Positions 10,783-50,500 of a stretch of DNA of 64,000 bases are shown here, one piece after another (within the stretch, counting starts at the first letter, position 1; every line of letters starts with the position of its first letter). The position numbers and the translations under genes are program-made. This DNA comes from Desulfitobacterium metallireducens DSM 15288 (GTDB lineage Bacteria > Bacillota > Desulfitobacteriia > Desulfitobacteriales > Desulfitobacteriaceae), in NCBI RefSeq assembly GCF_000231405.2, contig NZ_CP007032.1, positions 2,728,001-2,792,000 on the forward strand, read 5' to 3'. The notes beneath the pieces are model-generated. The model searched no databases and was not told the DNA's origin. It saw only the letters and a list, made by a program, of their open reading frames with translations.

Positions 10783-11517
10783 TTGACACCTATACTTGAA
10801 ATTCTGTGGATTAGCACAATTGCTGGTTTTGCAACAACCTTAGGCAGCATCCTCGTTCTCCTTTTCGGACGACCTCAAGAACGAGTACTGGCAACATTGC
10901 TTGCAGGTGCCGGCGGGGTGATGCTGGCCGTTGTCAGTTTAGATCTATTGCCAACAGCGTGGAAAATCGGACCGCCTCTTCAAGTCTTGCTTGGGCTAAT
11001 CTTCGGCTTGCTCTTTATGGCAGTGGCTGATCATCAACTTAATTCCACTTCCCCTACACTTCCCTTAACTCGACGTCAACGCTTGAAACGCGTCGGCCTG
11101 CTCGTCGCCTCAGGTATTGCTTTACATGACATCCCTGAAGGCATGGCGATTGCAGTCGGTCAAGAAGCAACCGAAGGACTGGGATTTATCATTGCGCTAG
11201 CCATTACGCTTCATAATCTACCCGAAGGCATGGCGACCACAGCTCCCCTAAAAATGGCTAATATCCGCCGGTGGAAAATCCTTCTTCTTAATATTGGGAT
11301 CGCTTTTTTCACCCCGCTCGGAGCATTACTCGGAGTAATCGCAGTTGAAGCCGTAAAAGGTTCCCTCGCCTTTTTCCTTGCCCTCGCTGGAGGAGCCATG
11401 GCCTTCTTGGTTTTTGCCGAGCTTTGGCCGCTCTCCCGGGAACGCCATCCGCACTATGCTTTGCTCGGAGGAGTCATCGGCTACGTCTTCTTCGCGATCA
11501 TTAGTTTGCTTCATTAA
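10783..11517 (+). CDS. ZIP-family metal transporter
   Basis: This 244-residue integral membrane protein has about eight hydrophobic helices. The two diagnostic metal-site helices are HDIPEGMAIAVG (near residue 113) and HNLPEGMATTAPL (near 144). A short hydrophilic loop at about 85-105 separates helices 3 and 4 and lacks a His-rich stretch. ZIP proteins move zinc, iron or manganese into the cytoplasm; the exact metal is not predictable here. Translation starts at TTG behind AAGGGGGA. The gene stands alone, with palindromic element A directly downstream. Confidence 0.93.
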   Translation: MTPILEILWISTIAGFATTLGSILVLLFGRPQERVLATLLAGAGGVMLAVVSLDLLPTAWKIGPPLQVLLGLIFGLLFMAVADHQLNSTSPTLPLTRRQRLKRVGLLVASGIALHDIPEGMAIAVGQEATEGLGFIIALAITLHNLPEGMATTAPLKMANIRRWKILLLNIGIAFFTPLGALLGVIAVEAVKGSLAFFLALAGGAMAFLVFAELWPLSRERHPHYALLGGVIGYVFFAIISLLH

Positions 11518-11562
11518 CTATACAAGGGGGCTGTTCTTCAGTCTGCTCTGAAGGTTGAGGAT

Positions 11563-11791
11563 GTCTCTGGGGTGTGGATTTTGTTTACTTCGTTCACTCC
11601 GGGCGCTTCGCAGACCGAAGCTAAGGCACTGTCTCCTTCTCTGGGTCGCGGGACGCCGCCAAAATCGTCTCCTGACTCTGTTGGCGGTTGCGCACGTCGT
11701 GTGCGCAACCCTTTTCTTTCAAGCAGGAGCCACTGCCTAAGCTTCGGTAACAGCTTGCTTAAGTCGTTCTCTCCCGTAAATCAAAATCCAC
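11563..11791 (-). repeat. Half-copy A1 of the palindromic element (minus orientation)
   Basis: Read on the minus strand, it is closed by a terminal stem: GTGGATTTTG at 11791-11782 pairs with CAAAATCCAC at 11583-11574, extended by GTAAA/TTTAC. Inside are a hairpin GGTTGCGCAC/GTGCGCAACC (11686-11710), a GCCAACAGAGTCAGGAGACG motif within a GCC/GGC-closed hairpin (about 11658-11687), and GGTCTGCGAAGCGCCCGGAG near the 3' end. A2 carries the same parts in the same order with different stem bases. Confidence 0.7.
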
Positions 11792-11907
11792 GTGCAGGTC
11801 TTTCTTGCTTCTTATGCATGCATCTGTAGCCGGTGGTACATTATGTACCACGCTACCTCTTGGGTCGTGAAATTCCCACATACAAGAGACCCATGAAGCA
11901 GCCCGGA

Positions 11908-12131
11908 GAGTTGCGAGTACAGATGCGGAGGCCTTAAGAGAGCAGCTAGCAAACTTGGCGAAAACTGGCTTGCATTAGCGGGGCGGGCACATGGACGTGC
12001 CCGGGCGCCAACAGAGGCAGGAGCCGATTCTGGCGCCAAACCCCGCCTGCTATTATCGAACAGTTTGAGCCGCTAGTTTGCTCTGCGAGCGCCTGGCCGG
12101 AGCAGTTGTAATCGCAACTCACCCCAGACAC
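11908..12131 (+). repeat. Half-copy A2 of the palindromic element (plus orientation)
   Basis: The terminal stem is GAGTTGCGA (11908-11916) with TCGCAACTC (12112-12120). Inside are CCTTAAGAGAGCAGCTAGC, hairpin GGGCAC/GTGCCC, and hairpin GGCGCC...GGCGCC holding ACAGAGGCAGGAGCCGATTC (12011-12030). GCTCTGCGAGCGCC and CCGGAGC come before the closing strand. The parts align with A1 read on the minus strand. The terminal stems differ completely in sequence but both pair perfectly. Confidence 0.7.
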
Positions 12132-12190
12132 CTTCATTCAAAGACCTCGCGAAAGCCCGACCTACACGTGCATTTTCAATTATTGGGCTA

Positions 12191-12883
12191 TTACTTTAGC
12201 ACGCGAGCTGCATATTCCCCCATCGCCTCATACCCCTTTGCCGTAGGGTATTTATTATCGTCCGAAAACCCGCCTCGATATTTGTTATCCGCATCCATTA
12301 CAGCTGAAGCAAAATCCAGAACGACGATGCTTTCTGTTTCAGCATATTGCAGCATCCAAGTCCGCATTTCTTTGATCGTTTGCTGGACGCCAGGATAGGG
12401 CATCGGCAAAGCCAATATTGGAGTAATGTTATTAGAACGCGACTTATCAACAAGGGCTTTAATATTCGTCTGGAACTCCTCTAGCGGGACTGATCTTAAG
12501 GCATCCCCATTTCCACTGAATATAATGATACGACCCGGTTTCTCCGCGACAACATCCGCCTCAAAACGAGAAAGCAAATCCATTGTTCTTTGATAGCCCT
12601 TTCCTTTATTCACAACGGAAACCTTTAGGCTCTTCTCGAGAACGGCTACCCAGGATTGCTCTGTCTTGCCGGGGTAGCCATACGTAAAGGAATCTCCTAA
12701 GGCCACAATTTTTGTATTTTCTAACGTTTTAGTTTGCGTCTGTGCCGTTTCACTCCTATCAGGCGCCCCATTTTCCTGACCCTTTGATCCTCCCCAAGCC
12801 CCTAAAAATCCAACGATCACGACCAAAACACTCAACGCAACCGATAGTTGAATCAGCCGGATCTCCAAACGATAAGTCCGCAT
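12191..12883 (-). CDS. SGNH/GDSL-type esterase-like lipid/polysaccharide hydrolase, atypical catalytic site
   Basis: The gene encodes 230 residues from the ATG at 12883, which has GGGGGG at 6 bp. Longer upstream starts lack a site. A signal-anchor helix covers about residues 10-32. The SGNH fold is indicated by block I VALGDSFTYG (Ser 65), block III FSGNGD, and a C-terminal block SDDNKYPTAKGYEAM. In the family this last block reads D-x-x-H-P. Here the His is replaced by Tyr 212 (codon TAC) while Asp 209 is kept. The protein may therefore be inactive, or act as a binding protein or with altered chemistry. It is transcribed alone toward element A. Confidence 0.85.
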   Translation of the reverse strand: MRTYRLEIRLIQLSVALSVLVVIVGFLGAWGGSKGQENGAPDRSETAQTQTKTLENTKIVALGDSFTYGYPGKTEQSWVAVLEKSLKVSVVNKGKGYQRTMDLLSRFEADVVAEKPGRIIIFSGNGDALRSVPLEEFQTNIKALVDKSRSNNITPILALPMPYPGVQQTIKEMRTWMLQYAETESIVVLDFASAVMDADNKYRGGFSDDNKYPTAKGYEAMGEYAARVLK

Positions 12884-13030
12884 TTTCATCCCCCCATATA
12901 TAAAAACTGCTAAAAAACACTTATATTTACTAAACTGAATTCTACATTTCTCTGTCCATTCCTGCTCTCTCACGTCCTGAAGTCTACCCGCATACTGTAA
13001 TATCAGGAATCAAAGGAGGTGCCCCTTAAA

Positions 13031-29869: not shown

Positions 29870-29905
29870 TCTTGCAGGTCAATCTTCAAGCAATTCTTCG
29901 AAGCA

Positions 29906-30193
29906 AGTTACAATTACAGTTAGCGAGGACTCTGAGTGAGCATTGATCAAGCTTGGTCAAAATTGCTCTTACCTTTGCTTAACGAGTCACAAGGCCGAAA
30001 CACTTCACTGGAGTGTTTCGCTCGCCGACACTGAGCCAAGGCGACGGCACAGGACGTGCCTAGTGCAGACTGCGCCATGGATGGCATAGCAGATCTGCGC
30101 GGCGAATTTGGAGGGCATTACGCAACTTGCATCCAGCAGTTATGCCCTTAGCTTGGTCTGCGAGCATACCTTCCGAGCGTCTGTAACGTAACT
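29906..30193 (+). repeat. Half-copy B2
   Basis: The terminal stem is AGTTAC plus TTACAG (29906-29919) with CTGTAA plus GTAACT (30181-30193). Internal hairpins include GAAACACTTCACTGGAGTGTTTC (29998-30020, written here across its loop), GGCACAGGACGTGCC and a GGGCAT...ATGCCC pair. GGTCTGCGAGC before the closing strand matches A2. Confidence 0.65.
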
Positions 30194-30208
30194 CTGCTTG
30201 CAAGAGCT

Positions 30209-30601: not shown

Positions 30602-30760
30602 AAGCCTCATCCTTAAGGATAAGACTCTGGAGAATTTCAGGCTAATACCCTCTGTCCTTTTGCCTGAGAGATTATGCAGCTTACGCTGTTTGCCCCTTCG
30701 GCGTCCTTATCGGAACTCTCCAGAGATCTGTCCACTTACAGTGAAGCGACTGCTCTCCTG
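30602..30760 (-). ncRNA. Glycine riboswitch with expression-platform terminator
   Basis: On the minus strand the conserved glycine aptamer is plain: CTCTGGAGAG, then ACGCCGAAGGGGCAA, then ATCTCTCAGGCAAAAGGAC and AGAGG. Only one complete aptamer is evident; the preceding GGAGAGCAGTCG...GGACAG segment could be a vestigial partner. Downstream, TCTCCAGAG is complementary to the aptamer's first strand CTCTGGAGA. It runs into a terminator stem AGTCTTATCC/GGATGAGGCT with TTTTTT (30602-30626). This arrangement suits transcriptional control of the ACT/UPF0210 genes by glycine. Confidence 0.93.
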
Positions 30761-45117: not shown

Positions 45118-45212
45118 AAAACGCTTTCGGTGGCTTGGCAGTCATCAGAAGAACTCTGGAAGACCCATAGCTTTGCGTCCTTGGCTTTCGCCAAGTTTGC
45201 TCTTGTCGATGT
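45118..45212 (-). ncRNA. Cyclic-di-GMP-I (GEMM) riboswitch
   Basis: The minus strand contains the family signature in order: AGAGCAAAC, CTTGGCGAAAGCCAAG (a stem capped by a GAAA tetraloop), GGACGCAAAGC, CTATGGGTCT and ATGACTGCCAAGCCACCG. These match the GEMM-I aptamer core, including the A-x-G-C-A-A-A and ACGCAAAGCYA segments. It sits about 115 bp upstream of an HD-GYP gene, with a terminator in between. Confidence 0.93.
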
Positions 45213-50305: not shown

Positions 50306-50329
50306 GGTCTCAATTGAACATCATATTTA

Positions 50330-50476
50330 ATAGGTGCCCGCAAGGGACAATAGGGAACCAGGTTGAATTCCTGGACGGACCCACCACTGTAATTAGATGA
50401 TGAAAATGTGCATTAGCCACTGGGATAACCGGGAAGGCGTACATCGGAGTCTATAAGTCAGGAGACCTGCCTATAA
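50330..50476 (+). ncRNA. Cobalamin riboswitch
   Basis: Conserved segments occur in order: AGGTGCCCGCAAGGG, AATAGGGAACCAGGTTGAAT, CCTGGACGG, CCACCACTGTAATT, then GCCACTGGGATAACCGGGAA, GGCGTACATCGGAGT and AGTCAGGAGACCTGCC (the B12-box region). The aptamer is complete. It lies between a good promoter and a terminator upstream of an ECF transporter, so cobalamin should switch the operon off. The rest of the 50065-50592 gap holds only the two promoters and no gene. Confidence 0.95.
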
Positions 50477-50500
50477 AATATCGCCAAAAGGACAATGGTA

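Follow-up and report, generated by a model that had tools for sequence, protein, structure and literature searches.

Between two convergent genes of Desulfitobacterium metallireducens DSM 15288, within the 64,000-nucleotide stretch of DNA analysed here ('the window'), lie two complete paralogous units of ~220 nt, A1 and A2, placed head to head with a hairpin in the middle. They belong to an apparently undescribed family of folded repeats that occur by the dozen, usually as back-to-back pairs, between the genes of Desulfitobacterium and Desulfosporosinus. The fold of the unit is strongly supported by covariation, and its pairing appears, from sequence comparisons, to be kept at the level of the DNA, or on both strands, and not in one RNA strand. 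Our tentative reading, a preference and not a firm conclusion, is that A1/A2 represents a dispersed DNA repeat, high in copy number and lineage-specific, that is REP/BIME-like but on a giant scale.

Two units head to head

The ORFs on either side look, by sequence motif only, like a ZIP-type transporter (10783-11517) and an SGNH hydrolase (12191-12973). No convincing coding gene spans the A1/A2 region between them; the ORFs listed there are short, and overlap one another in all frames. The initial annotation took A1 and A2 for inverted half-copies of one element whose parts follow in the same order, and the order was well described: the alignment of the two spans both ends, with a mean column identity of 76%, the repeats are found, and each has a hairpin with the ACAGAG…CAGGAG motifs. 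They are not halves, however. Each is a whole unit in its own right, and the spacer between them adds a third hairpin (Table 1). A covariance model, R1, built from 28 units with A1 and A2 among the seeds, scores A2 at 181.4 bits (E 2e-46) and A1 at 140.3 bits (E 1.6e-35). Against shuffled sequences the z-scores of the folds are -6.3 (A1) and -5.5 (A2), and no shuffle equalled either.

Table 1. Coordinates of the element, its parts, and other features of the window
Feature	Position	Strand	Remarks
Region between genes	between ORFs 10783-11517 (+) and 12191-12973 (-)		ORFs convergent; element lies in between
Unit A1, type II, 218 nt	11575-11792	-	P1, P2, three-way junction with P6 and P7
Unit A2, type I, 218 nt	11904-12121	+	Architecture as in A1
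Spacer between facing 5' ends of A1 and A2	11793-11903
Central palindromic hairpin, GTGGTACATTATGTACCAC	11833-11851		In spacer; from the sequence
Left outer end (A1 3' end)	11552-11574		Imperfect inverted repeat of right end
Right outer end (A2 3' end)	12120-12141
A1 P1 3' arm	11574-11586	-	From inverted-repeat search
A1 P1 5' arm	11779-11791	-	From inverted-repeat search
A1 P7 apical loop, C-AGGA-G	11669-11674	-
A1 P6 apical loop, C-ACGAC-G	11695-11701	-	Among the few units lacking GGA here
A2 P1 5' arm, GAGTTGCGA	11908-11916	+
A2 P1 3' arm, TCGCAACTC	12112-12120	+
A2 P6 apical loop, C-ATGGAC-G	11990-11997	+	CsrA/RsmE-type ANGGAX hexaloop
A2 P7 apical loop, C-AGGA-G	12018-12023	+
Another, diverged unit of the repeat family	29901-30196	+	R1 83.2 bits, E 2e-20
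Glycine riboswitch	30642-30733	-	Rfam scan
c-di-GMP-I-GGC riboswitch	45125-45210	-	Rfam scan
Cobalamin riboswitch	50315-50488	+	Rfam scan

The closing stems had been said to differ in sequence while each pairs perfectly with its own partner. They do differ, and in A2 the pairing of GAGTTGCGA with TCGCAACTC is perfect; in A1 it falls to 92%. Much the same can be said of the outer ends, which were described as inverted repeats. They are found as such at 11563-11574 and 12120-12131, imperfect at a 92% match, and they are inverted repeats because the two units have like ends. Among the copies in the same genome, similarity at the left outer end stops near TTGAG, and the central hairpin varies in both of its arms. 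By position, that hairpin corresponds to a hairpin, AGACGGTGCACATGAAATGTGCCGTCT, conserved at the 5' boundary of Desulfosporosinus units.

Imperfect outer inverted repeats, in a non-coding composite of about 580-690 bp that is present in dispersed copies, are what might be expected of an ordinary MITE, derived by deletion from a DDE insertion sequence and with its inverted repeats cut in trans by a transposase. We think this very improbable here. What repeats at the outer ends is not a fixed terminus but the homologous 3' end of each unit; units occur also singly or in tandem; no target duplication was seen in the five copies of this genome; and MITEs do not feature internal covarying structure.

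The diverged unit elsewhere in the window is enlarged by hairpin insertions that bear CAGGACG and CATGGATG motifs.

Copies, types and fold

BLAST finds five full-length or nearly full-length composites in the D. metallireducens genome, the other four 86-89% identical to that in the window, together with diverged single units. Related units run to hundreds: of 46 genomes of the bacterial family, 20 have BLAST matches and 37 have R1 matches, with none, under stricter filters, in 37 other genomes of the same class. Under fuller scoring, R1 makes 33 matches in D. metallireducens, some of them antisense or fragmentary, which leaves about 31 distinct units; in a Desulfitobacterium-like genome (G004) it makes 79. 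The hairpin pattern of type II units, sought across 84,980 species in a scan that omits genomes very near the window's, turned up only in Desulfosporosinus and two bins of the same bacterial family. A cmscan search found the element no Rfam match of useful score, the HEARO and large-RNA families included, and none up to E 10 among the Csr/Rsm families. Nor did a search of the open-access literature find a paper that combines Desulfitobacterium with 'miniature inverted-repeat', or anything on such a repeat.

Units are of at least three types. Types I and II pair head to head in D. metallireducens and in Desulfosporosinus; in the genus g3, presumed to be Desulfitobacterium, type II is partnered instead by a diverged type III. 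Head-to-head pairs were seen in several genera, and single units and direct tandems are present as well. Beside the ends of type III units at loci L144-L150 of genome G003, a short repeat beginning AGCCTCCNGTGGAGGGTTTCAGGAGCTCACGCCCGAAGGT recurs, and at four Desulfosporosinus loci (L153, L161, L169 and L080) the last 10-40 nt of the unit 3' end, finishing in CACAAGTCCC, are tandemly duplicated.

The plan of the unit, with 53 pairs in ~220 nt, takes in the closing stem P1 (about 15 pairs), an internal region rich in GA, the P2 stem, and an inner stem that leads to a three-way junction, from which the hairpins P6 and P7 project. The GA-rich internal loops beside P1 and a conserved unpaired core are common to types I, II and III. 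When 117 distinct units were aligned by fitting to the model, 91.9% of cells were paired, versus 33-46% when the structure was slid along the alignment, and in 47 of the 53 pairs both partners have changed. An earlier MAFFT alignment, made with no structure fit, already had double changes in 18 of 26 predicted pairs. The initial annotation saw selection on structure in the compensating changes between A1 and A2, and covariation on this scale agrees strongly with that, repair of the structure being the alternative cause.

Apparent DNA-level upkeep, and loops of the CsrA type

In the strict helices of the units G.U and A.C each account for about 1%. Cobalamin riboswitches from the same genomes, read on their native strand and put through an identical pipeline (MAFFT and RNAalifold), have 16% G.U and 3.7% A.C. 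By type, the same pipeline gives 1.1-1.5% G.U and 1.3-1.5% A.C for type I, and 1.1-2.5% and 0.8-1.4% for two subsets of type II; a third random subset of type II, for which the consensus structure differs, gives 7.1% and 0.9%. Orthologous sites display 25 double Watson-Crick changes versus five single changes with G.U and 13 with A.C. Since selection on one RNA strand should favour G.U, its rarity suggests that the pairs are kept in the DNA, or on both strands. At L101/L124 and other sites shared by G004 and G003, helices differ by several compensated pairs together—GTCGGG/CCCGAC versus GAAAGG/CCTTTC, for example—which suggests that copies exchange sequence or are corrected from a hairpin template.

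This scarcity of G.U bears on every reading of the units as RNA. They could be some other structured or mobile RNA—a ribozyme, the RNA of a retroelement, or an OMEGA-like guide—whose active part is the P1/junction core of types I-III. Their large size and complex fold would suit such a role, as would the persistence of the unpaired core and GA-rich loops in all types, even in the partner that lacks GGA. Yet Rfam offers no match of useful score, HEARO and large RNAs included, and an unsystematic look at the neighbours of the units showed no protein gene partner. We rate this reading improbable.

The most serious contender is that the units are transcribed, multi-copy, CsrA-binding RNAs of the RsmZ/CsrB kind, which would titrate CsrA beside the CsrA-FliW switch. 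On sequence grounds we regard this as possible but on balance unlikely. Each type I or II unit has a pair of A(N)GGAX hairpins, separated by about 30 nt, which a CsrA dimer could bridge. GGA occurs in the P6 loop of 151 of 160 units and in the P7 loop of 159, counts to be read in light of the common ancestry of the aligned units; position N is free, X is mostly C or T, and the closing pair is mostly C-G. RsmE targets are A(N)GGAX loops closed by C-G, and of these ANGGAX hexaloops bind best (PMC4005645). The CA(N)GGANG motif averages 1.94 copies in a type I unit and 1.17 in a type II unit; shuffles have 0.18-0.19, and the opposite strand 0-0.11. The unit strand is distinguished in other ways, too: on it alone are the unpaired bases A/G-rich, and on it type II units fold better in 69 of 71 cases. 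Genomes without csrA, moreover, have fewer units (Mann-Whitney p = 3.6e-4 overall, 0.006 within Desulfosporosinus), a correlation that is confounded by flagellar loss, phylogeny and genome completeness. The genes fliW and csrA occur in the same 35 genomes, and one genome with csrA (G036) has no units.

Against CsrA-binding RNAs stand, besides the intolerance of the stems to G.U, the type III partners, which have no A(N)GGAX motif, and the region upstream of the units, where sigma-70-like promoters are in no excess over shuffles. Like Csr/Rsm sRNAs such as RsmZ and CsrB (PMC4005645, PMC7652899), the units carry, on one strand, several apical loops of the A(N)GGAX form with C-G as the closing pair. 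Unlike them, they have strict Watson-Crick stems, exist in dozens of dispersed copies, have no promoter that we could see, reside in FliW-bearing Bacillota, and match none of the Csr/Rsm families of Rfam.

The initial annotation offered a choice between a mobile, single-strand-folding element and a large noncoding RNA. A folding DNA repeat fits better, on account of the strict Watson-Crick pairs, the lack of a conserved promoter, and the REP-like placement described below; its mobility, though, is historical. We favour the giant REP/BIME-like repeat over the CsrA-binding RNAs. Counting against our choice are the CsrA-like loops and the unpaired bases, rich in A/G on just one strand, both of which RNA explains more naturally, as well as the type II subset with 7.1% G.U. 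The two readings may each hold in part, with a repeat whose spread and upkeep take place in DNA but that displays CsrA-type loops once transcribed. Taken further, the repeat might have become a genome-wide sponge for CsrA, with dozens of two-loop units acting beside FliW in Bacillota and stems kept by hairpin-templated correction of the DNA, which we consider rather unlikely. If true, it would amount to a Csr/Rsm-like RNA system outside the Proteobacteria, spread as a mobile repeat. Functional loops would also bear on the existence of RNA antagonists of CsrA beside FliW, a question left open in PMC7652899.

Placement, kinship and mobility

By crude ORF calls, 91 of 116 elements lie between codirectional genes, 21 between convergent genes and only four between divergent ones; the window's own gaps of at least 150 nt, called the same way, divide into 14, two and five. 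Desulfosporosinus units commonly run, at their 3' end, right up to the stop codon of a convergent gene, or else supply that stop themselves through a TGA within P1. Abutting stops are enriched in TAG (20/37 versus 61/210, p = 0.004). A fixed CTA/TAG insertion target was considered and discarded: units with the stop inside P1 mostly have no flanking CTA, so the target is not required.

REPs likewise prefer unidirectional and convergent gene pairs, and form head-to-head dimers (PMC3733652). REP/BIME sequences of the GTAG and CGTC superfamilies (PMC3733652, PMC2817692) and our units have much in common: both are palindromic and extragenic, number tens of copies per genome, form head-to-head (hetero)dimers, and sit mostly downstream of coding regions, in unidirectional or convergent gaps. 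In other respects they are far apart. A REP is a single hairpin of 20-65 nt, whereas the unit, at about 220 bp, has 53 pairs and branches at a three-way junction. REP/BIME have a RAYT, a Y1 transposase flanked by the repeat; the units have neither this link nor the GTAG foot, and only their accessory 5' hairpin resembles the GACG…CGTC palindrome. Among the genomes searched, moreover, the units are confined to one family of Bacillota. Also comparable are bcr1 and similar stem-loop repeats (PMC2267715), likewise lineage-specific, intergenic and dispersed, 150-200 bp in size, and conserved in secondary structure. But bcr1 is a single repeat of ~150-170 bp, and the units are paired heterodimers with a larger, multi-branched, covarying fold. 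The ends of IS200/IS605 elements, and the attC sites of integrons, work through folded single-stranded DNA, as the units may. The unit fold is far larger than these, and it comes with no linked transposase or integrase, and in no array.

How might such a repeat operate? As a single strand, or as a cruciform, the ~220-bp unit would fold into the long closing stem and the three-way junction with its two hairpins. Units would have spread as DNA, by the action of an enzyme in trans, and insertions would have persisted where genes stayed unbroken. Selection at the DNA level would hold the helices perfect, or else copies would exchange sequence and be corrected with their hairpins as template. Less confidently, types I and II, if transcribed, would offer two A(N)GGAX loops able to hold a CsrA dimer. 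If we are right about the DNA repeat, the class is several times larger than REPs and structurally far richer, and a complex fold can persist without G.U intermediates. Whether covariation in bacterial repeats reflects RNA function or the upkeep of DNA hairpins also becomes a question that can be tested.

Sequence comparison shows that one clade has gained a unit inside an operon: in G012, G015 and G018 it separates two of the operon's genes, which in G017 and G036 have about 30 nt between them. Most of the G004 sites that were tested are occupied also in G003, another Desulfitobacterium-like genome, and insertions are therefore mostly old, and mobility old or slow. The initial annotation proposed a look for empty sites. 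None was recovered that was clean and showed a duplication of the target; of two candidates, L129 in G003 proved to be a partial deletion and L174 a replacement rather than a simple insertion.

No mobilising enzyme for the units was found. A linked Y1/RAYT transposase was rejected, being absent from several unit-rich genomes and present in unit-free ones. There is no Y1_Tnp in D. metallireducens, or in G005, G026 or G029, and just two of 30 Y1 loci fetched have a unit or weak match nearby, with strong units at one only (L255). Larger Y1 transposase genes at two Desulfosporosinus loci, L268 and L270, lie near GGGACGGTT repeats and not near ~220-nt units; these repeats apparently make up a separate REP system.
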